Shown: piece after piece, positions 3,141 to 34,452 of the stretch
Layout of the letters: the number at the start of each line of letters is the position of its first letter
How positions within the stretch are numbered: the stretch's first letter is position 1
IMG/VR virus record: IMGVR_UViG_3300020456_000003
Span: 1 to 34,452 of that record
DNA length: 34,452 bases
From: a virus
Reading direction: 5' to 3' (one strand)
Notes under the pieces: generated by a model
Databases searched by the model: none
Seen by the model: only the letters and a program-made list of their open reading frames with translations
What the model was told of the DNA's origin: nothing
Translations under genes and position numbers: made by a program

Positions 3141-3152
3141 TTTTGTGCGTTG
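3141..3152 (+). promoter_or_regulatory. Conserved late box, copy 2 (TTTTGTGCGTTG)
   Basis: TTTTGTGCGTTG follows the TerL stop and lies about 50 bases before the second MC-P gene and the portal gene. The core TTTGTGCGTTG recurs at 6558, 19083 and 34068, always on the + strand before a late module. If TTGTGC plays the -35, a -10-like TATGGT follows after 19 bases. I infer a late promoter; no transcript data are available. Confidence 0.6.
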
Positions 3153-3203
3153 CAATTTTAGTAATTGTATGGTTTGTATTTAAATTATTTATAGGAGAAT
3201 AAT

Positions 3204-3428
3204 ATGTGTTTACCATCACGACCCTCTGCTCCACCACCTCCAGCACCAGACCCAATGGCTATGGAAGCACAAAGGCAACAACGAGCCGAGAACCAAGCAG
3301 TTCGCTCTGAAAGAAAAGCTGACGTTTTAGAAAAAGGTATCCGTCGAGCCAGAGGTGGAAGTGGAAGAAGGTCATTGCTTTCTAAGACTTCTAAAGGTGG
3401 AATGGGTTATTACAACGAATTTTTATAG
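3204..3428 (+). CDS. MC-P motif small virion protein (T7 gp6.7-like), copy 2
   Basis: This 74-residue protein begins MCLPSRPSAPPPPAPDPMAM, continues with a charged helix and ends in a Gly/Arg/Ser stretch (RRARGGSGRRSLLSKTSKGG) and an aromatic tail. It has the same start and the same terminal TxKGG pattern as the protein at 259, so the two look like diverged paralogs. A ribosome site AGGAG sits before the ATG. T7 gp6.7 is the best match I can offer from memory. It sits directly before the portal gene, which fits a minor particle protein. Confidence 0.72.
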   Translation: MCLPSRPSAPPPPAPDPMAMEAQRQQRAENQAVRSERKADVLEKGIRRARGGSGRRSLLSKTSKGGMGYYNEFL

Positions 3429-3435
3429 ACATTAG

Positions 3436-5082
3436 ATGTTAACTTATGATGATAAACTTCCCGTTCCGTTGTTTGCGACTAATACAAAACAAGTCGCTGA
3501 ACAGTATATCCGTCGTTATGAGAGGGCTAAAAACCATCGTGAAAACTTTGTTCCGTTATTTGAAGAATGTTATGAATATGCTTTACCAATGCGTGAGAGC
3601 TTTTATCACGAAAGTATTGGTAAGCGTAGAGATGACAAAATCTTTGATGAAACGGCTGTTGTCGGTGTTCAAGAGTTCGCCTCAAGATTACAAAGTGGAC
3701 TTGTCCCGAACTTCGCAAGGTGGGCAGACTTCACGGCTGGGTCGGAAGTCCCGAAAGAAGAAAAAGACGAAATAAATAATACGCTTGACGAGGTTACTGA
3801 TTATGTATTTGAAGTAATACAGAATAGTAACTTTGCTCAAGAAGTGCATGAATCCTTTATGGACTTGGCAGTAGGGACTGGAATACTTGCCGTTAATGAA
3901 GGTGATGCAGTTCACCCTATTCAGTTTAATGCGATTCCTTTACCTCATGTTGTATTAGATATTGGGCATGATGATAACATAGACCATGTGTTTAGAGTTC
4001 GTCATGCAAGATGTGACCAGCTAATGCTAATGTATCCAAAGGCTCAGTTATCTGAAACATTAAAAAAGAAATGTCAAAAAGAACCTGATGCTAAAATTGA
4101 AATACTTGAAGTGGTCTGTAAAGATTATACTGTCAAGAATGATGATGGTTCTGCTTTATATGCAATCGTCATGGAATCAAAAGAGGTTATCTTTCAAGAG
4201 CAATACAAAGGTGTGGGCAGTAATCCATATGTATGTTTTCGTTGGGCAAAGTGTGCTGGTGAAGTTTACGGACGAGGGCCACTTGTTAATGCTTTAAGTG
4301 CAATTAAAACTACCAACCTTACTATTGAGTTGGTGCTTGAAAATGCACAGATGGCGATATCTGGAATCTATCAGATGGACGACGACGGAGTAATTAATCC
4401 TGATACAATTAATCTCGTGCCCGGAACTATCATTCCGAAAGCTCCTAACAGTTTAGGATTGCAACCCGTAGCATCTGCTGGTTCGTTTGATGTTGCTAGT
4501 CTTGTGTTAAATGATATGAGATTAAATATTAAACGAGCATTGTATAATGATATGCTTGGTGACCCGAACAAAACACCAGCTAGTGCAACAGAAGTTGCTG
4601 AAAGAATGGCTGACTTATCTAGGCGTATTGGTTCTGCTTTTGGTAGATTGCAAGTAGAGTTAGTTCAACCAGTTTTACAAAGAGTTGTTTACATTCTAAA
4701 AAAACAAGGCAGAATAGAAATACCTACTATTAATGGTAGGGAAGTTAAGGTGCGTAGCGTTTCGCCATTGGCTCAAGCACAACATAACCAAGATATAACT
4801 TCTGTTCATAGATTCTTGGAAATGGTGCAAAGAACATTTGGCCCTGAGATATTAAATATATTAATTAACTCAGAAGAGACTGCCGCTTATTTAGCCAAGA
4901 AGTTTGGTGTGCCTGATACTTTAATTAGAGATGCAGAAGAGAGGAGGCAGTTAGTTCAGATGGCACAACAGATGGCACAACAACAAGCTATGCAACAAGC
5001 TCAAGCACAAACACTTGGCGATAATCCTCAAGCTGATGCACAAGAAGGAATGGTAAGTGGAGAAGAACAACAACAAGCCTAA
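3436..5082 (+). CDS. Portal (head-tail connector) protein
   Basis: This 548-residue protein has the character of the T7 gp8/Head-tail_con family: an N-terminal helical region beginning after KQVAEQYIRRYERAKNHREN, a conserved RPSAR-equivalent region near ALPMRESF, and a glutamine-rich C-terminus (QMAQQMAQQQAMQQAQAQT) typical of podovirus connectors. Twelve copies would form the channel at one vertex through which DNA enters and leaves, and to which tail tube A binds. Length is normal for the family. The gene follows the MC-P gene closely, and its 3' end overlaps the next gene by 26 bases. Confidence 0.9.
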   Translation: MLTYDDKLPVPLFATNTKQVAEQYIRRYERAKNHRENFVPLFEECYEYALPMRESFYHESIGKRRDDKIFDETAVVGVQEFASRLQSGLVPNFARWADFTAGSEVPKEEKDEINNTLDEVTDYVFEVIQNSNFAQEVHESFMDLAVGTGILAVNEGDAVHPIQFNAIPLPHVVLDIGHDDNIDHVFRVRHARCDQLMLMYPKAQLSETLKKKCQKEPDAKIEILEVVCKDYTVKNDDGSALYAIVMESKEVIFQEQYKGVGSNPYVCFRWAKCAGEVYGRGPLVNALSAIKTTNLTIELVLENAQMAISGIYQMDDDGVINPDTINLVPGTIIPKAPNSLGLQPVASAGSFDVASLVLNDMRLNIKRALYNDMLGDPNKTPASATEVAERMADLSRRIGSAFGRLQVELVQPVLQRVVYILKKQGRIEIPTINGREVKVRSVSPLAQAQHNQDITSVHRFLEMVQRTFGPEILNILINSEETAAYLAKKFGVPDTLIRDAEERRQLVQMAQQMAQQQAMQQAQAQTLGDNPQADAQEGMVSGEEQQQA

Positions 5083-5323
5083 AATTTGTGTAGACGGAAT
5101 AACAAGAAGTCCACAACTTGATAGTGAAATCAGCCTTACTTTAGCACAATGCTTTTCTACTGAGTCGGGCAAAGAAGTGTTAAGGTATTTACGTTCCATA
5201 ACGATTGAGCTAGTTAATGGAGCAAATGTTTCAACAGATGAATTACGTCATATAGAAGGTCAACGCTATATCGTTGGTCTAATAGAAAATCGTATTCAAC
5301 ACGCACATAAGGTGAAAAAATGA
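5057..5323 (+). CDS. Bbp19-like small phage protein
   Basis: This 88-residue frame starts with GTG 5057 inside the portal gene, with AAGGAA upstream. The pattern LAQCFSTESGKEVLRYLRSI followed by LRHIEGQRYIVGLIENRI is like the Bbp19 family of small phage proteins found next to portal genes. The role is not established; scaffold or head-assembly help is plausible from position between portal and scaffold. It ends in an ATGA overlap with the scaffold gene. Confidence 0.72.
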   Translation: MEKNNNKPKICVDGITRSPQLDSEISLTLAQCFSTESGKEVLRYLRSITIELVNGANVSTDELRHIEGQRYIVGLIENRIQHAHKVKK

Positions 5324-6093
5324 ATGAAGAAAAAGAAGTAACGACTGAAGATGTAGCTGAAGCTACAGAAGAAGTTGTAGAGCAAGTAGCAGAACAAGCT
5401 AGTTCTTTACTGCAAAAAGAAGAAGAAACTCAATCAGGAGAAGTAGAAAGACCTGAATGGTTACCTGAAAAGTTTAAATCAGTTGAGGATTTTACTAAGT
5501 CATATTCTGAACTAGAGTCAATGATTGGTAAAAAAGAAGAGGATATACGCAAGAAAGTAGAAGAAGATATACTTTCTCAATCACTAGCAGACAGACCTGA
5601 GAATGTTGGTGACTATAAAATTCCTGATTACTTAGATGCTGAACAAGCTACTGATAATAAATTACTACAATGGTGGTCTAATCATTCTTATGAAAATGGA
5701 TTTAGCCAAGATGAATTTGAGCAAGGCATTAACATTTATGTAAATCAAATGCGACAAGGTGAACCAGTTTATCAAGATGAAATTAATAAACTTGGGGATA
5801 ACGCTGAAGCTAGAATAGAAGCCGTTAACTTATTTGCTAATAAACATTTTCAAGGTAGTAGTTGGGACGCAGTAGAACAACTATGCACAACTGCTGATGG
5901 TATAATGGCAATAGAAAGAATGATGGAAAATTCTAAAGCAGAGCCAGTAGCTAATAAAACAAATACTGTATCGGCTATGAATGAAGCTGATTTACAATCT
6001 ATGATGAAAGATGAACGATATCATAACCCAGCAAAACGAGATAACGCTTTTGTAAAACAAGTAGAAGATGGCTTTAAAAAGCTATATGGATAA
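5320..6093 (+). CDS. Capsid assembly scaffolding protein
   Basis: This 257-residue, very acidic and helical protein has an N-terminal Glu/Thr/Ala region, a central PEWLPEKFKSVEDFTKSYSE block, KIPDYLD, and a basic C-terminal segment (HNPAKRDNAFVKQVEDGFKK). That matches T7 gp9-type scaffolds, where the basic C-terminus binds the capsid protein inside the prohead. It starts in an ATGA overlap with the Bbp19-like gene and stops in a TAATG overlap with the next gene. Position just before the capsid module agrees. Confidence 0.85.
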   Translation: MNEEKEVTTEDVAEATEEVVEQVAEQASSLLQKEEETQSGEVERPEWLPEKFKSVEDFTKSYSELESMIGKKEEDIRKKVEEDILSQSLADRPENVGDYKIPDYLDAEQATDNKLLQWWSNHSYENGFSQDEFEQGINIYVNQMRQGEPVYQDEINKLGDNAEARIEAVNLFANKHFQGSSWDAVEQLCTTADGIMAIERMMENSKAEPVANKTNTVSAMNEADLQSMMKDERYHNPAKRDNAFVKQVEDGFKKLYG

Positions 6094-6623
6094 TGAATCG
6101 TTTAGAACTCAAGCGAGAAGGACGCTTGTGGTTAACATATGCTGAGTTAGATGACGCATTGAAAATCTCTAAGAGTCTAAGGCTTAACGACCAAAGAGAG
6201 TGTGCAATCCATGATGTTAGTCCTATTGAAGCCTTAACTGAGTCATTCGGTTTAAAAGGCTCTGTTACTTATTCTATATTTGTTGATGAAGAAGTCATAG
6301 CTATGCTTGGCACAGTTCCGTTTGATGAGGACAATACGAAAGCTAGTGTGTGGTTTCTTGGAACTTATGGTATTCAAAAACATTATCGACCATTCTTAAG
6401 AGGGTGTAAGGGTGTCATTGAAATACTGCAAGGTGAGTATGAAGAGATAAGTAACGTAGTTCCAGTTGAACATTCTGATACAATTATGTGGTTAATGTGG
6501 TGTGGTTTTACCTTTAGAAACGAGACATTTAATATTAATGGATTTGAGATGCTTCGTTTTGTGCGTTGCAGAAAGATAGAAAGTAATGTTATTAGGATAA
6601 AGCAACGGCCTGTGTTTCATTGA
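6093..6623 (+). CDS. Gp13-like protein with acetyltransferase (GNAT) fold
   Basis: This 176-residue protein includes a central beta region (SIFVDEEVIAMLGTVPFDED), the segment WFLGTYGIQKHYRPFLRG and a late VEHSDTIMWLMWCGFTF. The last has the layout of a GNAT C-terminal motif and of the T7 gp13-like family in podoviruses. In T7, gp13 is needed for assembly of internal virion proteins. Here the gene lies between scaffold and capsid, as I recall for other marine podoviruses. Whether it still acetylates anything cannot be said. The late box at 6557 lies inside its 3' end. Confidence 0.72.
   Translation: MNRLELKREGRLWLTYAELDDALKISKSLRLNDQRECAIHDVSPIEALTESFGLKGSVTYSIFVDEEVIAMLGTVPFDEDNTKASVWFLGTYGIQKHYRPFLRGCKGVIEILQGEYEEISNVVPVEHSDTIMWLMWCGFTFRNETFNINGFEMLRFVRCRKIESNVIRIKQRPVFH
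6557..6568 (+). promoter_or_regulatory. Conserved late box, copy 3 (TTTTGTGCGTTG)
   Basis: TTTTGTGCGTTG lies within the end of the Gp13-like gene, about 140 bases before the capsid start. A -10-like TAATGT follows 19 bases after TTGTGC. It would drive a capsid and decoration unit that ends at the terminator at 7808. The identical 12-mer occurs at 3141 and 19082. Confidence 0.6.
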
Positions 6624-6707: not shown

Positions 6708-7520
6708 TTGGCTAATACTATAGATACAGCTTTTATTAAGCAGTTCGAGAGCGAGGTTCACATGGCATATCAGCGAATGGGGTCTAAGTTAAGAAACACA
6801 GTTCGCATGGTAGCCAATGTTCAAGGCTCTACAGTTCGTTTCCAAAAGATTGGAACTGGGACTGCTTCAACGAAAGCTAGAAATGGTATGGTTAGTCCTA
6901 TGGAACTAACGCATACAAATGTAGAGGCAACTATGGCAGACTACTATGCCGCCGAATACATTGATAAACTTGATGAACTCAAGACAAACATTGACGAAAG
7001 ACAAGCAGTAGCGAAAAGTGCCGCCGCCGCTTTGGGTCGTAAGACTGACGAGATTCTTGTAACTGCTATGGACGCTGGTGCAAACTCAACTCAGATTAAC
7101 GATACAAGTGGTGCGTTGGTAAAAGCTGACTTGTTGGCTTTGTTTGAAACTATGGGTTCTGCTGACATTCCTGAAGATGGTGGACGCTTTTTAGCTATGC
7201 ACCCTAAAGGATATGCAGACTTGTTTAATATAACAGAGTTCGCTTCATCTGATTTTGTCGGTGACCAGAATCTTCCGTTCGCTGGTGGAATGAGTATGAA
7301 GGAATTTTTAGGGTTCAAAATCTTCTCTACATCTGCAATTACTGCTGGTAAGAATATCGCTTACCATACCAGTTCTGTAGGTCTTGGAGTAGGTGCTGAT
7401 GTATCAACCGAGTTAAACTACATTCCTGAGAAAGTAGCTCACCTCGCAACCTCTATGATGTCAATGGGTTCAGTTGTTATTGACGACAACGGAATCTATG
7501 AAGTCTTAGACAACAACTAG
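6708..7520 (+). CDS. Major capsid protein
   Basis: This 270-residue protein looks like the HK97-fold major head protein of podoviruses: N-terminal helix with FIKQFESEVHMAYQRMGSKL, a beta region around VRFQKIGTGTA, DERQAVAKSAAAALGRKTDE (spine helix), and a C-terminal P-domain block with FNITEFASSDFVGDQNLPFA. It is shorter than T7 gp10A. The start is TTG 6708, fixed by a perfect AAGGAGG five bases upstream, which predicts strong translation. The preceding 84-bp leader has a small CTGAT/ATCAG hairpin. Late box 6557 and terminator 7808 bracket this unit. Confidence 0.93.
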   Translation: MANTIDTAFIKQFESEVHMAYQRMGSKLRNTVRMVANVQGSTVRFQKIGTGTASTKARNGMVSPMELTHTNVEATMADYYAAEYIDKLDELKTNIDERQAVAKSAAAALGRKTDEILVTAMDAGANSTQINDTSGALVKADLLALFETMGSADIPEDGGRFLAMHPKGYADLFNITEFASSDFVGDQNLPFAGGMSMKEFLGFKIFSTSAITAGKNIAYHTSSVGLGVGADVSTELNYIPEKVAHLATSMMSMGSVVIDDNGIYEVLDNN

Positions 7521-14100: not shown

Positions 14101-14697
14101 GCTGGTTATAGAACTATGAAATCGGCCTCTGCATTAAATAAGATTTTTCCTAACTCAAGTCAGAAAGATAAATTCTTAGGCAATGTTCAAAAATTAATTG
14201 ACGAAAATCCTGATTATAAAGGTAAGTATATATTAGTTACTCCTAAAAAACCTTTTAAGGAAGCCTATGAGCAAATGATGAACAGTCCTTATGTGGGTGC
14301 TAATAGTGGGACTATGATGGCTCAACAATTTATGAACGCAGAAAAATTAAAAGAATCTTATTTAAAAGATGGAATGTATAAACCAAGAGGTAGGTCAAGT
14401 GACTTTACTGATTACTTGCCAGTTGACGGAACATACAAAGTATTTCTAGTTCCAACAAAACATAAATCATTTGTTACCAATACAACTACTGTAGCTGGTA
14501 GTGCTGAAACTACAACAGACCAATATCAACAATTTTATCTAATGACTTACCATGATGATAAACTGATACCTCTGCATAGGATTACAGATAATGGTAAAAT
14601 ACCTTTTATAGTTAAAGCACAACCTGAAGATGTATCGGTAAATGATTATATGACTATAGAAGAACAACAAGCAATTTTAAATCAGAGAACGCAATGA
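11164..14697 (+). CDS. Internal virion protein, T7 gp15-like
   Basis: This 1177-residue, largely helical protein lacks signal sequence and membrane segments. It starts at GTG 11164 with AAGGTGG upstream. The size and place, after the gp14-like gene and before the giant 1461-residue protein, match the middle ejection protein of T7-like phages (T7 gp15 is about 747 residues, so this one is long). In T7 this protein bridges the periplasm during DNA entry. Many Asn/Lys/Glu-rich helices and an ATGA overlap with the next gene are visible. No enzymatic motif was found. Confidence 0.75.
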   Translation: MAQRFGTRVIREGTSFRNTTIGVVKPSTANVESWEKAGEFGDKILGIATKRLSEIAQKKGESAARNIEAHNLRTINPETGNPEAWNMAPSSFGTIAQDAFEKTIESRYKFSIEQEIKAHSAKIAFKHQNKDNGSALFAKDMKDYLKQMSKNAKGMWSGYINEIGDIYVASSKLNLQQKEFDRELVKSRVDVIENLESWSKDFISLQQTNATVDDLEKSMKIANDIISNANKSNVFRPEDTRWATKFLRQSVLQAKITKLTSGLPVSPSSVNEINKLQSVLSSNGMGLNSLDDKKIVYKKYYFNADEMVTDTVEQTMFQFASELLSNENYNTEDGEFLSKLLQSIESNMSVSSTYNINAVQRQIVQDRPQLMKELNAKLATQVKSDISLIPNLKNPEDVKNFIVNTFFPNNKKLNDERYKLANDNGIEGSQVTKLLPSQLETGYRESILGALVSKFTQTDYLKGMVLNETEASVLQTDIEQFLFDGGTVGSKLKEVSKKHPELLENLKLLHNDGGGKFKPVIEIGNPRHKEIISQTIRGGIRDTNYAGQLSKEKSQINANAQIEAENKYLNETSAKLKKLLAEDNNDGLTQTTKDIVNKLKEFKKKRKELNNTSIKNGQEPLFTEEYNQKTEEKYESIIVDSALSLITKESVVLKTNDGVDIVKDSELYNKIANNINSATIEKLSESVQKQLKPLVSLLDGAQLNKVVEKFRSHATGLHKLEVKKSKVASMQLATSVVTTDNNSTLNTSAELNNAATNSVYTQHNVSENYFATSASLDQTPSSEQLYNNAKNGNTIPKAFKNQMTALANGTYTGSEAQTLYQHYRKMKYYQKIEVDGTGNRTENLFNGLKLNPLSTNTTETLALIDDIVKFRGVDNLDEVIAEVVATKDVEKATMEVRKTSFFEEFSQNKKPTNYTTAVVKLLDEDEVADLGLNVVKELSQVSKYLVENLGLDHETVKDRLNTLYNEHYVDTEGYVLDLHAGYRTMKSASALNKIFPNSSQKDKFLGNVQKLIDENPDYKGKYILVTPKKPFKEAYEQMMNSPYVGANSGTMMAQQFMNAEKLKESYLKDGMYKPRGRSSDFTDYLPVDGTYKVFLVPTKHKSFVTNTTTVAGSAETTTDQYQQFYLMTYHDDKLIPLHRITDNGKIPFIVKAQPEDVSVNDYMTIEEQQAILNQRTQ

Positions 14698-17600
14698 GTA
14701 TTATTATAGACCCATTTGCACCACTACCTACTGGTCAACGGAACTATGACTGGAGTCCGACTGCTACGGGTTATGAGTCTAAACCTGACAAGGGTTATGA
14801 CTTTGGTGATTTGTGGAAAGCTCACGCTACCTATACATACGAACCAATATGGGATTGGTTATCAAATACTTATGACCATTGGGACAGAATGGACGAAGAC
14901 TATAATCCGTTTAACGATATGGAAGGATATGAAAAGTATTATGATGATTTAGCTTATGCAAAAAACGCTGAACATATGGAAGATTTAAAACGTCAGATTG
15001 ATGATGGTTTAGAGCGTAGAGAAATAATGGGTGAGTTTGGCTTTATGGCAAATATGTTTGCTGGTCTTATAAGTGACCCAGCTAATTTATTACCATTGCC
15101 GTTTGCTCTTACTCGTGGTGTTGCTACTGGAATAGCCAGAGGTTCAATAAGAAGTGCAACGGGAGTGATGGCAAGAACTGGTAGAAATACTGCTCTTGGT
15201 GTAGCTGGTGTTACTGGAATACAAGAAGGTATGAGATATCCAACTGATATATTAGCAACACCTGAAGAAGTAGCTATGAATATGGGTAGTGCCGTTGTTG
15301 GTGGATTTCTATTAGGTGGCTTACTTGGAATTCCTATGGCTAGAAAATGGAAAGCATATGAGACAACAGTTAAAGATGCTGATGTAGAAGTTAAATTACA
15401 TAAAGGTAATATTGATAGAGCTAATGGTGTAGCACCTGATAAAAAAGAACATAGACCAATGGGTCATTTAACTGATGATGAGTTAGTTGCCGCCAATGAA
15501 TCTTTACCAAAGCAAATAGAAAAACTTAAAGAAATAGAAAGAACAGCACCTACTCTTAAAGAGAAAAAACAAATAATCAAAGATTTATTTAAGACAACTA
15601 TACGTTCTATTAATCGTTTAACTGATGCTGAGATAGTTAAAAAGTTTGGAAAAGAATTTAATGTTAAGGGCGTTATATCTGCACCAGCAAAAAAGATAGA
15701 AGCATTACAAGCACAAGGTAAATTACCAAAGAAAGTATTAGGCAGACATTTTTATGGAGATATTACTAATAAGTTACAAGGCATAGTATATGTAAATAGA
15801 GATGCAATAATGTTTGCTTTTAATAGATTGCAAGGTTGGGCAAATGACCCAACAATTTTAGCTAAAGCAATTAAAGATGGTGGAGCGAGTGCTCAATCTA
15901 AACTGCATTGGAAGTTTCAATTTAACAATAGGGACGCATTTAAAACTGTTGATGATTTAACAGACTTTGTTTTCTTTCACGAATTGTATCACGGCAAGGT
16001 AAAAAAGAAAAAAGGTGAATCAACTTTAGCATATGAAAATAGAATTAATGTTTTGGCATTAGACCGAGTAATGACAGAAAAGAAAAAGATTCGTGTAGCT
16101 AGTAAGAGTGCTAAAGAAATTGGAATGACAAGAGAGCAAATTGATGAAGCTATTATTCATAAAGAAGGTGAACTAGCACAAATACAAACTGAAGTTATTG
16201 ATAGGCGTAATGATATACAGTTAGCTAATATTGATGACCCATATAAAATAGCTGACAGTTGGTTTACTAATAGTGTTATTTACAAACTAATACCTACTCC
16301 TCTTAAATCTACATTGTTAAGTAAGAGAGTTCCTACTGCACATAAGAAACGTATGGTTATGTTAATTGGTGATAATGGAACTCTACTTAATTTACACAAA
16401 TCAGGATTTACTACTGGTGAATCTGTCTTTACTGGTGCGAAAAGATGGCAAGGCGAATACATGGAAGTATATGATTATGCTTTAAATCAATATGCACTAG
16501 GCACTAAAAAAGGAAACAATATGATAATGGACTGGTCGGGGATTAAGTCACCGATTGGTAAGGGGAGGCTAACGGATACACGCCCGTCTGGTTTTGAAGA
16601 GTTTTTTATTAATGCAAATTTGCGTAGGCTTGAAGGTAAGAAAGGTAACACTAATTACGAACGTAATGTAATTAAAAAGATGGACGACTTTTGGGAAACT
16701 TGGGGAACTAGGTTAGAAGAAGTTGGGTTGATAGGTAGTAAAAGATACTTTGAAAAAAGAAAAGTAGAGATTAATAGACGATTAACTATAGCTCAAAAAC
16801 AATTAGATGATATTGAAAAAGAGGTAGCTGATACTCTTGGTGAACTAACTAAAGCACCTAAAGATGCTCCATCATTTAAAGATGTATTAACTGGTGCAAC
16901 AATTAAACCAAAGTATGCGACTGAAGAATTAATTAATATTATGATTAAAAGAGATAGGTTACGTCAAATACTAGACGACCCTGAGACTAGTGGTTTAACA
17001 AAAGGTCAACATAAAGCACTAGCTAAACTTGATGCTATGATTAAAAGAATGTTAGCTAAAGACCCGTTACCACCTAGATTAAGGAACAAACTGGTCTTTA
17101 AAAAAGCATCTGTTGTTCGTATGAAAAACGAAATAAATAACTTAGATGACCAATTAAAAAATATAAAAGATAATCCTATTCTTCCAGCAAATGAAGAAAA
17201 GATGTTTGCTAGGTATTGGAATCACGATTATGTAACTGCGAATAGAGCAGAGTTAGAAGGCATATTATCTGATTGGTATAAAACAAATAATAAATTGTGG
17301 GTAAGGGAGCATGATGACTCTGGAAACAGTAAGTGGGTAGAGAAAGAATTAAAGACTGATGATGTATCTACACGAGAAAGAGCTAAAAATACTGTTGATA
17401 ACATTCTTGGTTTAGTTGATGAAACTACAGAAGTTAATTCATATTATGGAATGGGTAAGTCTAAACACTTTAAACATAGAACATTAGATATTCCTAATGT
17501 GCTTGTTAAAGACTTTATACAAACAGACCCAGTAGCAGTAATGAAAGCCTATACTGACAGAGTAGCACCTAGATATGAGTTTGCTAAAAAGTTTAGAGAC

Positions 17601-19079
17601 AAAAATCTTGAAGATGTTTTAGATGATATTGATGATGACATTATGATATATGGCAAAGGAACTAAAGCTGATGCTGATGAAGCTAGAAAGAATTTTATTA
17701 TAGGATACGATAGAGTTGTTGGCTCTGTATTGCGTGACTCAAATACATGGGACAATAGAACTGCACAAGTTCTTAGAGATATGACGCAAATGACTTATCT
17801 TGGTAGTGCTGGTTTTTCTACATTACCTGATGCGGCGAAAATAATATTTGAACATGAGATAGGCACAATATTTAAAACACTAAGTAGTGTATTAGATAGT
17901 AGAGTAAGAATGAACGCTTATGAAGGTAGGATAGCTGGTGAGATTTTAGATATAGTTAATAATTCATCTCATATGCGTTTAACTAATGAACTTAATAATA
18001 ATCCTTTTGCTAGAGGAACATATCAAAAAGTAACGGGTGAAGCTAAAAGTGCTTTCTATATGTTAAATCTTTTAGCACCAATGACTAGAACATTTAAACA
18101 AATTGATTCTATGTGCAGAGTTCACACCTTTGTTGATTTAGCAGTTAAACGAGCTACTACTGGTTTAAAGCAACAAGACATGGAAATACTAAGTAGATAC
18201 AACATAGGTGCTCAAGAAGCTAAACAGATAAAAGAATTAGTAGATATGAATATAATTCAGAAAACTGAAAAAGGATTATATTTATTAAACTCAAAGAAAT
18301 GGCCTAAAGAATATCATGGATTACGAAATACATTTAGAGGCAGTCTTAATTCAGGAATCCTGAATACAGTTTTAATGGGAACACCAGCAGATTTGCCAGT
18401 ATTAGTTGATGGCATATTTCATATACCAATGCGTATTGCTGGTAAATTTGGAATGTCAGAAGACCCAAAGGTTAGAGGTTACGCAAGAGTTGAGAGTGGT
18501 TTACTTGGTATGCCGTTCCAATTCATGTCGTATTCATTCGCCGCTATGAATAAAATAACTGCATCTATGGCACAAGGTCAGTTAAGAAATACTACTGTTG
18601 GTGTATTAGCTAGTCTTGGTCTTGGTTATCTATCATTAGAATTAAAAGCACAAACATCATTAATTGGTAGTGATAAAACTAAAGCGTGGTATTGGGAAAA
18701 TTTAAGTGCTGAAGATAAAATGCTTAGAGCATTTGACCAATCAGGATTGTTGGCTTTAATTTCTGATATTTATTATACGGCTATGGAAAATGGAGAAAGA
18801 TTTGGCGTAGATATGGGATTTGGTTTGTTTAATCCTAAAGTTAAATCACGAGAAGATGATACTAATTGGGATAAAACTATGGATACTTTTACTAGTATTG
18901 GTGGTGCTGGTATGTCTTGGGGTGATGCAGTAGCTAGAAAAGGGTTTGGTGAAATACTACAAGGTAATTATGGAGAAGGTAGTTCTCAGTTATTAAAAAA
19001 TGCTCCATTTTTAAAGCTATGGTTTTTGCGTGGGTTTATGGGAGACATGGGTTCAGAGTTAAGACGTAGTAGGTGGTGA
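14694..19079 (+). CDS. Internal virion protein, T7 gp16-like, with an HExxH motif
   Basis: This is the largest protein of the genome (1461 residues). The N-terminal part has WDWLSNTYDHWDRMD, and hydrophobic stretches occur near residues 115-140 and 197-215 (MGSAVVGGFLLGGLLGIPMA), as in ejection proteins that reach the inner membrane. T7 gp16 carries an N-terminal transglycosylase; I do not see one here. Instead residues 421-434 read DLTDFVFFHELYHG, a clean HExxH zincin motif (His429, Glu430, His433), preceded by a beta-rich block from about residue 340. A protease or wall-active zinc domain is therefore possible but unproved. The C-terminus is helical. Confidence 0.8.
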   Translation: MSIIIDPFAPLPTGQRNYDWSPTATGYESKPDKGYDFGDLWKAHATYTYEPIWDWLSNTYDHWDRMDEDYNPFNDMEGYEKYYDDLAYAKNAEHMEDLKRQIDDGLERREIMGEFGFMANMFAGLISDPANLLPLPFALTRGVATGIARGSIRSATGVMARTGRNTALGVAGVTGIQEGMRYPTDILATPEEVAMNMGSAVVGGFLLGGLLGIPMARKWKAYETTVKDADVEVKLHKGNIDRANGVAPDKKEHRPMGHLTDDELVAANESLPKQIEKLKEIERTAPTLKEKKQIIKDLFKTTIRSINRLTDAEIVKKFGKEFNVKGVISAPAKKIEALQAQGKLPKKVLGRHFYGDITNKLQGIVYVNRDAIMFAFNRLQGWANDPTILAKAIKDGGASAQSKLHWKFQFNNRDAFKTVDDLTDFVFFHELYHGKVKKKKGESTLAYENRINVLALDRVMTEKKKIRVASKSAKEIGMTREQIDEAIIHKEGELAQIQTEVIDRRNDIQLANIDDPYKIADSWFTNSVIYKLIPTPLKSTLLSKRVPTAHKKRMVMLIGDNGTLLNLHKSGFTTGESVFTGAKRWQGEYMEVYDYALNQYALGTKKGNNMIMDWSGIKSPIGKGRLTDTRPSGFEEFFINANLRRLEGKKGNTNYERNVIKKMDDFWETWGTRLEEVGLIGSKRYFEKRKVEINRRLTIAQKQLDDIEKEVADTLGELTKAPKDAPSFKDVLTGATIKPKYATEELINIMIKRDRLRQILDDPETSGLTKGQHKALAKLDAMIKRMLAKDPLPPRLRNKLVFKKASVVRMKNEINNLDDQLKNIKDNPILPANEEKMFARYWNHDYVTANRAELEGILSDWYKTNNKLWVREHDDSGNSKWVEKELKTDDVSTRERAKNTVDNILGLVDETTEVNSYYGMGKSKHFKHRTLDIPNVLVKDFIQTDPVAVMKAYTDRVAPRYEFAKKFRDKNLEDVLDDIDDDIMIYGKGTKADADEARKNFIIGYDRVVGSVLRDSNTWDNRTAQVLRDMTQMTYLGSAGFSTLPDAAKIIFEHEIGTIFKTLSSVLDSRVRMNAYEGRIAGEILDIVNNSSHMRLTNELNNNPFARGTYQKVTGEAKSAFYMLNLLAPMTRTFKQIDSMCRVHTFVDLAVKRATTGLKQQDMEILSRYNIGAQEAKQIKELVDMNIIQKTEKGLYLLNSKKWPKEYHGLRNTFRGSLNSGILNTVLMGTPADLPVLVDGIFHIPMRIAGKFGMSEDPKVRGYARVESGLLGMPFQFMSYSFAAMNKITASMAQGQLRNTTVGVLASLGLGYLSLELKAQTSLIGSDKTKAWYWENLSAEDKMLRAFDQSGLLALISDIYYTAMENGERFGVDMGFGLFNPKVKSREDDTNWDKTMDTFTSIGGAGMSWGDAVARKGFGEILQGNYGEGSSQLLKNAPFLKLWFLRGFMGDMGSELRRSRW

Positions 19080-19081
19080 TG

Positions 19082-19093
19082 TTTTGTGCGTTG
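19082..19093 (+). promoter_or_regulatory. Conserved late box, copy 4 (TTTTGTGCGTTG)
   Basis: The 12-mer begins three bases after the end of the gp16-like gene and ends 32 bases before the tail-fibre ATG. The -10 region is weak here (TAGAAG), unlike at 3141 and 6557, which argues that the conserved box itself is the key element. It would boost fibre, RCC1 and lysis genes. Confidence 0.58.
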
Positions 19094-19125
19094 AAATAAA
19101 ATGTATTTAGAAGTAGGGTTCGGCT

Positions 19126-20034
19126 ATGACGATAGAATTAATAAATAACAGTCCAAGAGACAGTTACACAGTAACGAATGGAAATACTCAAGCGTTATTT
19201 GACGTAACTTTTGAGTTCTTTGATTCTACTGATTTAAAGGTTTATACAGATGGAACATTACAAAGTAGTAGCACCTATTCTGTTGCTGGTGGTGATGGTG
19301 CTATTGGTTCAATTACATTCACTACGCCTATAGTCGGCACAACTGCTGGTGTTAAAGTAGTTATTACTCGTGAGATTCCTTTACAAAGAACGACTGACTT
19401 TCCAACATCAGGTGCGTTTAATATAGGAACTTTAAATACTGAGCTTGATAGATTTATAGCTATTGCCGCCGATTTAAACGATTCTATTAATAGAAGTCTT
19501 GTATTAAATACAACTGATTCAGATGCTACTCTTACATTACCTACATTAGATGACAGAAAAGGCAACACATTAGCTTTTGACGCAACAACTGGTAATGCAA
19601 TAGCTGGGCCTAGTATTACTCAAGTTAATAATGTTATTGCAAATGTTGCTCAAGCATCAACAGATGCTACAACGGCAACAACTCAAGCTGGAATAGCAAC
19701 AACAAAAGCTAGTGAAGCATTACAAAGTGCTACAGATGCCGCCGCATCTTTAGCTAGTGCGAATCTTCCTACTAGTTTTACTGGTAATTCTGGTAAAATT
19801 ATTCAAGTAAACTCAGGCGAAACTGCATATGAGTTTGCAACGTCTGCAACAAATAATGGTGTGTTTTATGGATTAAGAATTGATACTTCAACTGGTCATT
19901 TAGTAGTTGATAGTTCAACACTTGGGGGTAGCGAAGCGTTTACGTTAAGTAACTATGACAACTACTTCTTTAGTTCGCCAAATGTAACTTTCTCTTTAGA
20001 CACATCAGGCGATTTAATCTTAACGACACCATAG
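19126..20034 (+). CDS. Tail fibre protein with T7 gp17-type N-terminus
   Basis: This 302-residue protein has an N-terminal half (NNSPRDSYTVTNGNTQALFD, then DGAIGSITFTTP and LQRTTDFPTSGAFN) matching the T7 gp17 N-terminal domain that attaches fibres to the tail nozzle. Residues 165-210 form an Ala/Thr-rich heptad-like stretch (QASTDATTATTQAGIATTKA), a likely trimeric coil. The last 90 residues are a short beta tip. It is too short to be a complete receptor fibre, so the 661-residue protein encoded next probably supplies the distal part. Confidence 0.86.
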   Translation: MTIELINNSPRDSYTVTNGNTQALFDVTFEFFDSTDLKVYTDGTLQSSSTYSVAGGDGAIGSITFTTPIVGTTAGVKVVITREIPLQRTTDFPTSGAFNIGTLNTELDRFIAIAADLNDSINRSLVLNTTDSDATLTLPTLDDRKGNTLAFDATTGNAIAGPSITQVNNVIANVAQASTDATTATTQAGIATTKASEALQSATDAAASLASANLPTSFTGNSGKIIQVNSGETAYEFATSATNNGVFYGLRIDTSTGHLVVDSSTLGGSEAFTLSNYDNYFFSSPNVTFSLDTSGDLILTTP

Positions 20035-20043
20035 GAGGTCATA

Positions 20044-22029
20044 GTGGCAACAATTAATGTCGGAAAACTAAGAGTTAACTGGAAGGGTGCGTATAGTAGT
20101 AGCACGGCTTACGAAGTTAATGATGCAGTTTCGAGTGGAGGCAATTCTTATATATGTATCTTAGCCTCAACTGGTAACGCAGTAACTAATACAACTTACT
20201 GGAATGTGATGGCAGAGGGAACTACAGTTCTTACAACTGCTGGGGATATAATGACACATGACGGAAGTAATCAAATTAGATTAGCAAGAGGTAACTCTGG
20301 ACAAGTATTAAAAGCATCTTCATCTAGCGTAGCTTATCAAAATGAATCAGGTTACAAAGGCTGGAATGTTTTAGAAGCAAATTATGGTGACCCAATTTCT
20401 TGGAATGTAAGTCCAACTGCAACAAATACTTATGGTGCAGATGGAAAAAGAGCTTGGTTAGCTGATTATTCTAATAACTGGATTCCACAATATCCTTATG
20501 CTAATCCAGCAATGGGCCCAATAGCTAATGCTAAACAAGGCATGGAGTATAAACTATATAGACTGCATTATCATTTGAACACAGAGCATGAATTGTGTGT
20601 GCAAGGTTCAGATGGTCATAGTTATTCAATGAATAACATTAATGCTGGATATGGACATAGTGGCTATACCATGATGAGCATGAGTAATGACAATGGTGGC
20701 ATGAGAGATGGCGACTACTTTGTTAGATTTTGGGCGGCTACACATAGTTTATATGCTTTAACTAAAGATGGTGACTTATTTTGTCGTGGTTATAATGGCT
20801 ATGGTCAGCTTGGTTTAGGCGATACAACTAATAGATGGTCATGGAATAAGATTCCTACACTTGGCCCTGATGCTACACATTCAGGTGTATCGTGTCAGAT
20901 AGCTGGGTTTCATTTAAGTAATTCAATGTGCACTGGTGGTGCAAGTTACAATGGTTGTTATGCTATTGATACAAGTGGAAGACTTTTTGCTTGGGGATAT
21001 AATGGTTATGGTAAACTAGGTAATGGTAATACTACAAACCAAACACTTCCAGTTCATATATCAAGTTTAAGTAATGTTTCTATGGTAGATGCTGGATACA
21101 ACACTTGTTTTGTTGTTGATACCAGTGGCAATTTATTCTTTGCTGGATATAATCAAAATGGAATTGATGGTGGAGTAGGTAGTGTAACTACATTTACTGA
21201 CACCAGCCAAGATGACGTTTATCAAATTTTAAATGGTGAAGGATATTATTATACTTCGCTATATGCACACGCACATTACATTAAAACTGATGGAACGGCT
21301 TATGGCATTGGTGGTAATGCAGTAGGAACTGTTGGTAATGGTTCAACTTCTCAAGTAAATGCTTGGACTGCTATCGGTGGTTCTACCAAATATAGTGGAA
21401 TGGTCGGTGCTGGTAATTCTTATTATGCAACAAGAGCAGTATTAGGTGGAACACCAGCAAGTCCAAATAATAGTGTTTATGTTTGGGGGTATAATGGAAC
21501 TGGGATATGTGGGATAGGTTCTACTACTAACCAACAATCTCCAATAGCACCATCAACTACAACAGAATACACACATACAGTAGCTTCTACGACTTCTAAC
21601 TCTGCACCAACTAAAACTAATGTTGATTTCCCTACTACTTCAATAAGAAGAATATGGGCAAATAGAGGATTACAAGGTCAATCAACGGCTAACTTTTATT
21701 ATCAAGATGATAAGTATAGAATTTGGAAGGCTGGTTACACAAACTCTATGGATTATTTTCAAGCAAGTAGTGGTAATGCGAATATGCCAAATATCCAACT
21801 TGATTTAAACCCAGCTAATACACCAGCTACAATATCATCTAGTCATTGGGGTAGTTCAGTTGAAACTAAAATTTGCCACATGAATAGTGGTGGCAATGCC
21901 TATGGTAGTGAAGGTTTTGAAATGTTCTATACAGAAGATGGTAGAATATTTGTAAGAGGATATAATGGACAAGGACAATTAGAACCTGCGGCTACATATG
22001 TAGGACAATGGATACAACTAAGACCTTAA
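20044..22029 (+). CDS. RCC1-repeat beta-propeller protein, probable receptor-binding tail protein
   Basis: This 661-residue protein starts at GTG 20044, with AGGAGG upstream. Residues 12-56 resemble a small carbohydrate-binding module (VNWKGAYSSSTAYEVNDAV, then NSYICIL and TYWNV). From about residue 240 there are six or seven RCC1-type blades with a repeated GYNGYGQLGxGxTTN core, for example near 248, 317, 368, 422, 482 and 638. RCC1 propellers bind proteins, nucleosomes or lipids in cells. In phages this fold is seen in adhesin-like tail proteins. Location right after the fibre base suggests host recognition; this is inference. Confidence 0.83.
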   Translation: MATINVGKLRVNWKGAYSSSTAYEVNDAVSSGGNSYICILASTGNAVTNTTYWNVMAEGTTVLTTAGDIMTHDGSNQIRLARGNSGQVLKASSSSVAYQNESGYKGWNVLEANYGDPISWNVSPTATNTYGADGKRAWLADYSNNWIPQYPYANPAMGPIANAKQGMEYKLYRLHYHLNTEHELCVQGSDGHSYSMNNINAGYGHSGYTMMSMSNDNGGMRDGDYFVRFWAATHSLYALTKDGDLFCRGYNGYGQLGLGDTTNRWSWNKIPTLGPDATHSGVSCQIAGFHLSNSMCTGGASYNGCYAIDTSGRLFAWGYNGYGKLGNGNTTNQTLPVHISSLSNVSMVDAGYNTCFVVDTSGNLFFAGYNQNGIDGGVGSVTTFTDTSQDDVYQILNGEGYYYTSLYAHAHYIKTDGTAYGIGGNAVGTVGNGSTSQVNAWTAIGGSTKYSGMVGAGNSYYATRAVLGGTPASPNNSVYVWGYNGTGICGIGSTTNQQSPIAPSTTTEYTHTVASTTSNSAPTKTNVDFPTTSIRRIWANRGLQGQSTANFYYQDDKYRIWKAGYTNSMDYFQASSGNANMPNIQLDLNPANTPATISSSHWGSSVETKICHMNSGGNAYGSEGFEMFYTEDGRIFVRGYNGQGQLEPAATYVGQWIQLRP

Positions 22030-27516: not shown

Positions 27517-27846
27517 TTAGTTCTCCTTTAATTTGGGTGCTATCACCTCATTAAATATTTCTTCGCTAAACATTATAACTTGTTTAGGGTCACCATCTCT
27601 GCGTCTAAATACTACAACATCTCTGTCTTCAAACGCATTGAATACATTAGGAAAGTTAGACTTGTGTCTATACTTTACCTCTACTACCAGTCGTCTTCCT
27701 CCGACTTTGATGTGGAGGTCGCCAGTAAATTCTCCTCCCAACGAGCCAGAGAGAGGGACTTTCTTCGTCTCCACGCCTTGTTCCTCAAGCCACGCCTTGA
27801 CTTTCTTTTCGTGGTAATTTCCTTTGTTGCGACTTTTACTTGCCAT
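27517..27846 (-). CDS. Hjc-like Holliday junction resolvase / PD-(D/E)XK nuclease
   Basis: This 109-residue protein begins MASKSRNKGNYHEKKVKAWL, then has SLGGEFTGDLHIKVGGRRLV and VVEVKYRHKS. Glu13, Asp43, Glu56 and Lys58 are the expected catalytic set of the Hjc-type fold. It would cut branched DNA produced by recombination before packaging. I chose ATG 27846 because GGAGG is four bases upstream; an ATG nine codons earlier lacks a site. A zinc-ribbon frame overlaps its 5' part. The stop TAA touches the initiator ATG. Confidence 0.8.
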   Translation of the reverse strand: MASKSRNKGNYHEKKVKAWLEEQGVETKKVPLSGSLGGEFTGDLHIKVGGRRLVVEVKYRHKSNFPNVFNAFEDRDVVVFRRRDGDPKQVIMFSEEIFNEVIAPKLKEN

Positions 27847-28019
27847 GATTCCTCCGTATAACAATCCAAACATATAGTATAATAGACTGCTGGTTTTTCA
27901 TGAGCGAGTAAAACTAGGTAGTCCCGTGTCTTGTTATGACACCCGTCACAAACGTATGACTTAGTGCCATCATTTGATAATCGTTTTCTTATGGACTTTG
28001 ACTTTAAGGCCAAGTGCAT
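27684..28019 (-). CDS. Zinc-ribbon protein overlapping the resolvase gene
   Basis: This 111-residue frame carries KSYVCDGCHNKTRDYLVLLA and TICLDCYTEESW, two CxxC pairs 28 residues apart, which is a convincing zinc ribbon. The N-terminal two thirds occupy sequence used by no other gene. The last 54 codons overlap the resolvase in another frame and are very Arg/Lys-rich, so the tail may be only tolerated. ATG 28019 has no good ribosome site and overlaps the HTH gene by 50 bases; the start is uncertain. The function is unknown. Confidence 0.52.
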   Translation of the reverse strand: MHLALKSKSIRKRLSNDGTKSYVCDGCHNKTRDYLVLLAHEKPAVYYTICLDCYTEESWQVKVATKEITTKRKSRRGLRNKAWRRRKSLSLARWEENLLATSTSKSEEDDW

Positions 28020-28188
28020 CTAACCAACACGCTAACAAGAAACCACTAGGCACTCGTTTGTATTGTTCCCATTTATGCACAAGAGATTTAGCACACCCTA
28101 TCTTATATGCTAACTCTTCTTGTGACAATTTTTGCTTGTGCCTAGCTACTACAAGCTGGGCGATTATGTCCTGATAGGTTTCAGTCAC
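27970..28188 (-). CDS. XRE-type helix-turn-helix protein
   Basis: This 72-residue protein carries a Cro/CI-like HTH (VVARHKQKLSQEELAYKIGC, then AKSLVHKWEQYKRVPSG). I chose GTG 28188, which overlaps the stop of the preceding HTH gene. ATGs at 28232 or 28272 would extend it through that gene in another frame, and the extension does not look conserved. It probably regulates phage transcription, perhaps at the 15-bp dyads. The HTH is clear; the start is not. Confidence 0.7.
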   Translation of the reverse strand: MTETYQDIIAQLVVARHKQKLSQEELAYKIGCAKSLVHKWEQYKRVPSGFLLACWLDALGLKVKVHKKTIIK

Positions 28189-28384
28189 TACAACTTTTCT
28201 TTTGTAATGCTGAAAAGTAATTGATGGCATCATAAACTTTTCGTGCCGTCGTGTATCTGATATCTTGTCCATGCTTCACACGATAATAAGTAGAAGAAGG
28301 CACACCAGCTAAGTCGAACCCAATCTTGAGTGAGACTTGTTTTTCTTTTGAGTATTCTTCTAAACATTCTAAGTAACTTTTCAT
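28181..28384 (-). CDS. Small helix-turn-helix protein, 67 residues
   Basis: The core KIGFDLAGVPSSTYYRVKHG followed by DIRYTTARKVYDAINYF fits a minimal XRE-like HTH (recognition helix SSTYYRVKHG). The protein is basic and contains no other domain. No strong ribosome site is seen before ATG 28384; the region just upstream holds ACTGCGTTTATGC, a loose relative of the palindromic early element. It lies in a cluster of tiny regulatory genes. Confidence 0.62.
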   Translation of the reverse strand: MKSYLECLEEYSKEKQVSLKIGFDLAGVPSSTYYRVKHGQDIRYTTARKVYDAINYFSALQKKSCSD

Positions 28385-28704: not shown

Positions 28705-28992
28705 TTATTCTCCAATTAAATTTTCTAATTCTTCGTCTGTCATAGAGTCCACATCTTTATCAGTAAGTGTTTCTATTCTTGGACGAATAGGTTTTTGTTT
28801 AAGTTTACGTTTAACTCTTCGAGGTATTACAACTGTATCTCGTTGATGCACATGATGGTCGGTTATAATTATCTCACGAGTTCTTATAGTATTGGTGCAA
28901 ACAAGACAGACTCTACGCCTCCGAACAGAGTTATCGTGCTGAAGACGAGAGTCTTTAACGCTTGTTTCATTCTTACACTTAGGACATTTCAT
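28705..28992 (-). CDS. NrdR-like zinc-ribbon protein lacking the ATP-cone
   Basis: This 95-residue protein begins MKCPKCKNETSVKDSRLQHD, followed by VRRRRVCLVCTNTIRTRE. Cysteines 3, 6, 29 and 32 and the VKDSR and RRRR patterns are those of the N-terminal zinc ribbon of NrdR, the repressor of ribonucleotide reductase genes. Bacterial NrdR is about 150 residues with an ATP-cone that senses dATP; here a short basic, then acidic tail follows instead. It could bind NrdR boxes in the host without nucleotide control. The start overlaps the preceding gene. Confidence 0.78.
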   Translation of the reverse strand: MKCPKCKNETSVKDSRLQHDNSVRRRRVCLVCTNTIRTREIIITDHHVHQRDTVVIPRRVKRKLKQKPIRPRIETLTDKDVDSMTDEELENLIGE

Positions 28993-32893: not shown

Positions 32894-33298
32894 TTACTCT
32901 GTTATAGAGCCAAGCAACTTGTCTAGTTCCTTGTTAATTTGCTGGGCGTTCTTAGGGTCTGCAACCTTAGAACTTCTTGGTGTCCAGTCTTTACCAGTAA
33001 TCTTCTTGAACACGGCTAAGTTTGCCTCGTGGTCTTCGGTGATTACTGAGTTCTCTTGAGCCATGCTCTGATAGATATTAAACTCTTTCTCGAGCTTGAC
33101 ATCTACTACTTCTGAACCTGATGCCTTTCGGAGTTCCAACATCTCGGCTTTCTTATCCGACATCTTGTTACCTGACCAGTCTAAGTCCTTCTTAGAAGTC
33201 CAGCACTCGTTACCAGCCATCTGTTCCCTACGATAAGCGTTCTCTTCACCCGAATAGTAGTTAATCACGGCTAATTTTAAATTTACTAATTTTGACAT
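32894..33298 (-). CDS. First early protein, 134 residues, unknown
   Basis: It starts MSKLVNLKLAVINYYSGEEN at ATG 33298, fixed by AAGGAGG five bases upstream. A longer frame reaches 33349 but passes through a hairpin and has no site. The protein is charged and helical (MAGNECWTSKKDLDWSGNKM, FKKITGKDWTPRSSKVADPK) with one Cys and no membrane segment. It is the first gene of the leftward half and is closed by its own terminator, which fits a highly expressed immediate-early product. No family is recognised. Confidence 0.72.
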   Translation of the reverse strand: MSKLVNLKLAVINYYSGEENAYRREQMAGNECWTSKKDLDWSGNKMSDKKAEMLELRKASGSEVVDVKLEKEFNIYQSMAQENSVITEDHEANLAVFKKITGKDWTPRSSKVADPKNAQQINKELDKLLGSITE

Positions 33299-33322
33299 CT
33301 CTGCCTCCTTATAGTTAGTTGC

Positions 33323-33344
33323 GATATCGGGGAATTCCGATATC
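33323..33344. other. Perfect hairpin before the first early gene
   Basis: GATATCGG (33323-33330) and CCGATATC (33337-33344) form an eight-pair stem around GGAATT. It lies 25 bases before the leftward ATG 33298, in the leader of the first early gene, and could affect translation, mRNA stability or serve as a protein site. No T tract follows, so it is not a terminator. Confidence 0.6.
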
Positions 33345-33434
33345 TCCACCCGACAATCATAACTAGAGTAACCTTCTTAGGTGGGTTCTCCTAATGGTTA
33401 GCCTCCAGCCTTACAGAATAAAACACTAGAACCC

Positions 33435-33532: not shown

Positions 33533-34067
33533 TACTGTAGTTGTGATTTCGATAGGTGGAGAATCGGAAGTCCCCCCTTAGATATCGTGACTGACTATAA
33601 GGAGACCCTTGCAGAGATAGGCGAAATTAGTAAATTTAATATTAGCCGTCCTGTGAGATTAACTGCTAGTCGTCTTAAAGGTGAAGAGATAAGTGTTCGT
33701 AGGCAACAGAGGGCTACTTAGGGAACGAGGGGTGGACTTCTTAGAAGACTCTGGTCGGGTGGCAAGATTCGGAGAAGAAAGTTGAGATGTTACTCGGAAC
33801 TCCCATCAGGTCGGAAGTCGTCGTGGCAAGTGAAGAGAAGGAGTATTAATATCATCAGGGCGTGGCACTAGAGAACGCATCACCGACGACTGCGAACTTG
33901 GCAAACTCGTGTTCGAGGGGATTGCTGGGGAAGGCTGGATACCTAGAAGTTATTTGCAGACACACGACCAGCCAATTATCACGGAACTAGCGATTGGCTC
34001 TGTAACAGAACTTGTAAAACTCTGAGTGGGACGAGGAAGGATTCCATTCTGCATGGCGGAGTATCAA
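33533..34067 (+). other. GC-richer divergent region with coding-like fragments
   Basis: No standard gene covers this stretch. Besides the frame at 33587 there are tiny frames at 33732 (17 residues, MDFLEDSGRVARFGEES) and 33787 (20 residues, MLLGTPIRSEVVVASEEKEY). A frame open from 33834 to 34025 without a normal start includes ITDDCELGKLVFEGIAGEGW and SYLQTHDQPIITELAIGSVT. They read like protein and follow each other in different frames, as a decayed or frameshifted gene would. The stretch also leads to the late box at 34068. Confidence 0.4.
33587..33721 (+). CDS. Possible small protein in the divergent region, 44 residues
   Basis: From GTG 33587 the frame reads MTDYKETLAEIGEISKFNIS and then RPVRLTASRLKGEEISVRRQ to a TAG. 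The frame is open back to 33521 with sensible composition but has no ATG. No good ribosome site precedes the GTG. Composition looks like protein and the region is less A+T-rich than elsewhere. It may be a real short gene or a remnant. Confidence 0.35.
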   Translation: MTDYKETLAEIGEISKFNISRPVRLTASRLKGEEISVRRQQRAT

Positions 34068-34078
34068 TTTGTGCGTTG
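34068..34078 (+). promoter_or_regulatory. Conserved late box, copy 1 (TTTGTGCGTTG)
   Basis: TTTGTGCGTTG overlaps a perfect TTGACA (34076-34081) and lies 48 bases before the small terminase ATG. A TAATTT at 34091 could serve as -10 for the TTGTGC frame. It is the entry point of the whole rightward late block. Confidence 0.62.
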
Positions 34079-34126
34079 ACAAATAGTCGTTAATTTGGCT
34101 TAAAGGGGGGAAAGAAAGGGGGGTTT

Positions 34127-34452
34127 ATGACTGCTCTTAAACCAATGAATGAACCAGCCAAATTGACGGCCAAACAAAAAGCACTAATTGATACGCTCGT
34201 AGCCACTGGTTGCAGTATTAAGGAAGCCTCGCAACAAGCTGGGTATGCTAAAGGTGAGGCTGGGAGAGTGAGTGCGAGTAAGGCTTTGAGGCTTCCGTAT
34301 GTGCAACAGTATATGATGGAAGAGGTTGCAAGGAATCTCGGTGTCAATGCTACGAAAGCTGTGAGTAGGCTGGTCAGGTTGTCTGAATCTGCTCGGTCTG
34401 AATACGTCCAGCTAGAGGCAAGTAAAGATATCCTAGACCGAGCTGGATTCAA
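34127..34452 (+). CDS. Terminase small subunit, 5' part (gene crosses contig ends)
   Basis: This is the 5' part of a 129-residue protein. Residues 1-83 come from 34127-34375 and the rest continues at base 1 to the stop at 139-141. An N-terminal helix-turn-helix is visible (LTAKQKALIDTLVATGCSIK, then EASQQAGY), followed by a helical region with KAVSRLVRLSES and SKDILDRAGF. This is the layout of phage small terminases, which recognise the packaging site and load DNA into the large subunit. The ATG follows a G-rich purine leader with GGGGGG tracts. The conserved late box at 34068 lies 48 bp upstream. Family assignment is from motif and position; the motor subunit follows at 1618. Confidence 0.82.
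   Translation, partial: MTALKPMNEPAKLTAKQKALIDTLVATGCSIKEASQQAGYAKGEAGRVSASKALRLPYVQQYMMEEVARNLGVNATKAVSRLVRLSESARSEYVQLEASKDILDRAGF
34376..34452. repeat. Right copy of 77-bp terminal overlap
   Basis: This is the second copy of the first 77 bases of the window. It lies within the small terminase gene and should be counted once when the genome is circularised. Confidence 0.93.

Follow-up and report, generated by a model that had tools for sequence, protein, structure and literature searches.

A candidate late-gene switch, a small XRE-type protein paired with a heptamer abutting the -35 element, in marine podoviruses without a recognised RNA polymerase

The window analysed here (the whole 34,452-nt stretch of IMG/VR record IMGVR_UViG_3300020456_000003) is a viral contig that assembled as a circle of 34,375 bp, with a 77-bp end repeat. 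It has the layout of a small podovirus, with late genes on the + strand and early genes on the - strand, and genes for head, packaging, tail, lysis and replication/recombination functions were recognised. Based on the large terminase and the capsid protein, the closest isolate is Pelagibacter phage EXVC031P Hodr (64% and 52%, respectively); no near DNA matches to the window were found among the annotated phages searched. No RNA polymerase was found among the scanned window proteins, large ORFs included, in agreement with an earlier note on this DNA that described a phage without a recognisable polymerase. An ORF of 1177 aa had no match of any kind, and family searches turned up no integrase or lysogeny gene. 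Four late modules on the + strand are relevant here: the terminase small subunit gene (terS, 34127..34452, running on across the circular join; PHROG 51/2538), a small gene followed by the portal gene (3204..5082, portal from 3436; PHROG 332), the major capsid protein gene (6708..7520; PHROG 3437) and the fibre and tail genes (19126..22029; PHROG 18179, 9851, 5073). The tail fibre gene itself (20044-22029) contains repeats that match ‘regulator of chromosome condensation’ PHROG families. A long imperfect inverted repeat with three paired stretches (78-96% complementary) occupies positions 33215-33328 and 33581-33715; the stretches are ~250-430 bp apart, and one arm lies within the start of ORF 32894-33349.

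An 11-mer, TTTGTGCGTTG, precedes each of the four late modules. The terS copy (34068..34078, +) lies 59 bp upstream of the terS start at 34127. The second copy (3142..3152, +) begins 4 bp past the stop of the terminase large subunit gene (terL), before the small gene at 3204 and then the portal at 3436. The capsid copy (6558..6568, +) is within the 3' end of ORF 6093-6623 (codons F-V-R-C), ~150 bp before the capsid gene at 6708, and the fibre copy (19083..19093, +) is just past the stop of an internal virion protein ORF (14694-19079) and 43 bp before ORF 19126. The earlier note had placed the box at these four positions, on the + strand only and before terS, portal, capsid and tail fibre, with three copies extending to a longer word; all four copies are exact, the - strand is empty, the gene contexts agree, and the 12-mer TTTTGTGCGTTG occurs three times. 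Allowing one mismatch on both strands of the whole window added no copies, and the expectation from shuffled sequences at ≤1 mismatch was 0.56±0.74 copies, with four reached in 1 of 100 shuffles. TTTGTGCGTTG is also the most over-represented 11-mer of the window (4 copies vs. 0.013 expected under a third-order Markov model), exceeding the top word of every one of 60 simulated genomes.

Relatives were gathered by portal, capsid and terminase, and their contigs are mostly fragments. In the first 80 relative loci, TTGTGCGTT ranked first among 9-mers by how often it occurred at least twice, and the opposite strand had no exact copy of the 11-mer; of all 9/10-mers in the relatives, the word is the one most frequently found in multiple copies, on one strand only. 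The first T of the 11-mer is not conserved in the relatives and position 5 tolerates A. The resulting family word, TTGTG[C/A]GTTG, is conserved in hundreds of related marine podovirus contigs. There, too, it stands upstream of terS, the portal operon, capsid and fibre, the four slots known from the window, with a strong bias to the late strand, almost always to the exclusion of the other. Counting distinct but related sequences in homologous slots, exact TTGTGCGTTG was found in 15/56 terS, 59/138 terL-end, 66/125 capsid and 8/10 fibre slots. The same slots gave no exact match to two control words, the reverse complement and the reversed word. For the window together with 50 long relatives, TTGTG[C/A]GTTG is present in 28 contigs at 1-4 copies each, the opposite strand having no copy. 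When IMG/VR was scanned with the terS version of the box, at least 120 stretches matched; opposite-strand copies among the matches listed were single ones in three contigs (G059, G062 and G069). A literature search for TTGTGCGTTG gave only unrelated papers among the matches listed.

Aligned sites of all classes show a second conserved block downstream of the box. When sigma70 -10 scores were measured from the final TTG of the box, the terS class peaked at spacer 18 (z 4.6), the portal class at spacer 18 (z 4.5) and the capsid class at spacer 19 (z 6.2), with a weak signal at spacer 17 for the fibre class (z 2.3); a further score at spacer 12 (z 5.4) makes the -10 assignment of the portal class ambiguous. 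In the sequence logos of the portal and capsid classes, the -10 is preceded by a TG at a distance of two bases. Three of the classes thus have the arrangement of a sigma70-type promoter (-35 TTG, -10 at 16-19 bp), and the fibre class has it weakly. On the window, the predicted terS promoter combines a -35 TTGACA (34076-34081, the final TTG of the box being 34076-34078) with a weak -10 TTAAAG (34100-34105, spacer 18). The portal promoter has TTGCAA (3150-3155) and either TTGTAT (3174-3179, spacer 18) or TATGGT (3168-3173, spacer 12), the capsid promoter TTGCAG (6566-6571) and TATTAG (6590-6595, spacer 18), and the fibre promoter TTGAAA (19091-19096) with a possible -10 TAGGGT (19114-19119, spacer 17), all on the + strand. 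This fibre -10 would leave almost no leader before the ATG at 19126; a box-to-ATG distance of ~42 at the fibre gene recurs in several genomes. A general scan of the window for the sigma70 consensus gave no more hits than in shuffled sequences. Twin G-runs (GGGGGG, ~7 nt, GGGGGG; window ~34105-34123) lie downstream of the terS promoter and before the start of terS, and are kept in the terS slots of many relatives, with and without the late box.

The terS slots separate the two parts of the box. TTGACA is present in all 26 boxed and all 30 box-less terS slots (~4% expected), so TTGTGCG is an added element that abuts the -35. Three genomes carry TTGTGCG-G-TTGACA in this slot, with one extra base between the parts; the heptamer and the -35 are therefore separable. 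As read from these comparisons, the box consists of two units, an invariant -35 TTG and, upstream of it, a separate heptamer, TTGTG[C/A]G. The ‘-35-like element’ of the earlier note holds in so far as the last TTG would serve as the -35 with a -10 at canonical spacing, but the heptamer goes beyond that label. The extra element abuts the -35, stands before all late units and is absent from the early ones, as in an activator-dependent late promoter. The capsid slot alone is weak evidence, because there the box overlaps the F-V-R-C coding sequence and CGTTG is fixed even without the box; of the relatives with F-x-R-C, all 107 encode the arginine by CGT, whether or not they have the box. GTG as the valine codon, by contrast, is specific to box-bearing sequences.

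One early gene accompanies the box. This gene (27970..28272, - strand) encodes an XRE-type helix-turn-helix (HTH) protein, identified from PHROGs transcription regulators, Pfam HTH_3, an AF2 model and its co-occurrence with the box, and is our candidate for the late activator. With the comparison limited to contigs that also hold other early genes, and with a homology cut-off of 80 bits chosen for this analysis, the HTH gene was found in every informative box genome (18/18) and in no box-less one (0/16; Fisher 5e-10, a statistic that ignores kinship). The portal tree shows four changes of the box, accompanied in 4/4 cases by a change of the HTH gene; a sign test on these independent changes gives p = 0.125, significance being out of reach with four events. 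The box-less G027 and Hodr have weak HTH homologues (~50 bits). When all ORF families of five box genomes were compared, only the HTH locus gave 20/20 against at most 2/16. In a second sample of 20 contigs, picked by the terS box alone among the IMG/VR matches listed, the HTH gene was found in 14, including all eight contigs longer than 30 kb; the six contigs without it end before the locus or miss the early region. HTH homologues were also found, independently of the box, in five bacterial/archaeal bin contigs, three of which carry the box. No box-bearing isolate turned up in the phage records searched, which for the protein gave only the weak Hodr homologue. Since box and HTH gene appear and disappear together across relatives, the HTH protein is likely the late-gene switch.

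Small HTH and zinc-ribbon proteins had both been proposed earlier as the activator. One HTH gene tracks the box and no other gene does, which favors the former; the zinc-ribbon candidates were dropped. The NrdR-like gene at 28708 (window 28705-28992, -, a 95-aa protein with an NrdR-type zinc-ribbon N-terminal domain) is present in only 1/20 relatives compared by tblastn. The cysteine-rich, ribbon-like ORF at 27684-28019 (-), which overlaps gene 27517-27873 in another frame, has counterparts at the same place in both box and box-less relatives. Two further HTH genes were rejected: the neighbor of the candidate at 28181-28384 is present with and without the box, and the second small XRE gene of box-less genomes (HTHb) also occurs in the box genome G005. 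Next to the homologue of 28184, a second small XRE gene was seen in G007 (18603-18836), G008 (5229-5462) and G005.

The HTH protein has ~86-100 aa, its true start being uncertain (perhaps 28230), and belongs to the XRE (HTH_3) type by both profile and fold: the Pfam HTH_3 match scores 24.9 bits (cut-off 23), and the AF2 model has a pLDDT of ~90 over residues 21-70, the HTH core. Its structural and sequence neighbors, including those from Foldseek, are HipB, SinR, restriction-modification (R-M) controller proteins and P22 C2, and there is a weak PHROG match to a ‘CII-like regulator’ (E 0.001). Box genomes keep the recognition segment SLxHKWEQxKRxPSGF almost unchanged, and it is lost in both weak homologues of box-less genomes; in G032 the segment is changed and the boxes are also altered. 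This is suggestive of co-variation between recognition segment and box. Inverted repeats are the usual targets of XRE dimers, whereas the box is non-palindromic, with TTGT-N6-ACAA in the terS copy only.

Slots in which the box is missing bear on the sign of its effect. The distance from the terL stop to the next gene has a median of 60 nt with the box and 10 nt without it (64 boxed, 63 others), and in terL-end slots without the box the whole promoter segment is absent. In box-less capsid slots the -10 at spacer 19 is nearer to TATAAT (p = 0.029 for all; p = 0.0036 for the TTT/AAT class). Both the lost portal segment and the stronger -10s fit the loss of an activator. The main rival is repression by the same HTH protein, with the box as an operator that covers the -35 and silences late genes early in infection. 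XRE proteins are often repressors, HipB, SinR and P22 C2 are among the best structural and sequence neighbors, and the box touches the -35 TTG. A repressor would not, however, account as well for capsid -10s that are stronger rather than weaker without the box, or for the loss of the portal promoter, and the conserved heptamer lies upstream of the core promoter and not over it; we therefore regard repression as unlikely, if still the most serious competitor to activation. A k-mer search of the box-less clades found no repeated replacement box. Box-less terS slots of L110, L165, L173 and L179 have another word, AGTGAAATTAA, 4-5 bp before the same TTGACA, which is possibly the site of another regulator, and in those of L038, L041, L106 and L205 the TTGACA is doubled, 13 bp apart, at the place of the box.

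Alternatively, a host regulator, or host sigma by itself, might recognize the box, with the HTH gene as a mere passenger. The -35 and -10 stand in the register of host sigma70, and the core -35 TTGACA exists without the box; but joint changes of box and HTH gene are seen at four points of the portal tree and also in the independent sample, and other early genes do not track the box, which leaves this reading improbable. We give very little weight to an RNA element, i.e., an antitermination or processing signal acting after transcription: all copies do share one orientation upstream of genes, with one inside a coding region, but the portal, capsid and fibre classes have no conserved fold, terS has only a 4-bp TTGT/ACAA pairing, the -10 stands at a fixed distance, and each box precedes the start predicted for its own transcript. 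Least credible are chance repeats combined with coding constraint, which the capsid copy and its fixed arginine codon could suggest, but which are refuted by the three intergenic slots, the 11-mer over-representation, the multi-copy rank in relatives, slot conservation relative to controls and one-strand placement.

Various known systems resemble the proposed pair in part. A dimer of C.Esp1396I on its distal site recruits the sigma subunit (PMC4041747), which by analogy offers a precedent for a small XRE dimer acting in this way. C proteins (C.Esp1396I, C.AhdI, C.BclI) are, like the HTH protein, small (~80 aa) XRE proteins and are among its Foldseek neighbors. They differ in having paired symmetric C boxes, in controlling their own genes and in lying beside restriction genes, whereas the box of the window is asymmetric, does not occur on the strand of the HTH gene and would drive phage late genes; no R-M gene was found in the family scans and no box on the early strand of the window, unlike what is expected of an R-M controller.

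Lambda CII, also an HTH activator from a phage, has its DNA element, TTGC-N6-TTGC, straddling the -35, and it acts in lysogeny; the logos here give TTG-N4-TTG(C/A), before late genes. P2 Ogr, Mu C and T4 MotA are phage proteins that direct host RNA polymerase to late or middle promoters, but they differ from the HTH protein in family and site position, and no gene scanned here had a PHROG or Pfam match to any of them. In T4 middle promoters the MotA box replaces the -35, ~13 bp from the -10, whereas here the -35 TTG is kept with the -10 at 17-19, and the scanned genes gave no MotA/AsiA family match. P2 Ogr-type late promoters use a zinc-finger activator with a site near -55, whereas the window element abuts the -35; Ogr/Delta matches were likewise absent from the scanned genes. 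A promoter for a T7-like, single-subunit phage polymerase was rejected, as no such polymerase is among the scanned proteins. CtrA is a host-encoded regulator whose site, TTAA-N7-TTAA, differs from the box word. Promoters under CtrA control have been described in alphaproteobacterial phages (PMC9437464).

We consider it probable that host RNA polymerase is recruited to the late promoters by the small XRE protein, acting as an activator at the heptamer. The HTH protein would be made from the leftward early operon and would bind TTGTG[C/A]G directly, at about -43 to -37; the final TTG of the box would begin the -35 hexamer, which region 4 of host sigma would recognize. Bound in this position, the protein may stabilize host RNA polymerase on weak core promoters, so that the four late modules are switched on together. 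The earlier reading of the box, host polymerase plus a phage activator, is thus supported by the -10 register, by a promoter segment that tracks the box and by HTH co-occurrence, and was revised with regard to the zinc-ribbon candidates and the plain ‘-35-like’ label.

The paper on Polarivirus skadi (PMC10504331) reports no phage RNA polymerase and just a few sigma70 promoters, located close to replication genes, and late control in pelagiphage-type podoviruses that lack RNA polymerase has so far been unexplained. For this group, known mostly from metagenomes, the analysis offers a four-site regulon, a named regulator gene and a testable pair of one protein and one 10-bp site. We lean towards the broader view that in this widespread marine podovirus family, which lacks RNA polymerase, the whole late switch may consist of one XRE protein (~85 residues) and a single heptamer site, and that the pair was lost as a unit at least two times, the late core promoters being rebuilt each time (stronger -10s, no portal promoter, other terS upstream elements). 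Such joint loss of a regulator and its sites, with rebuilding of the core promoters, would be a natural experiment in which activator-promoter coevolution can be read from sequence.
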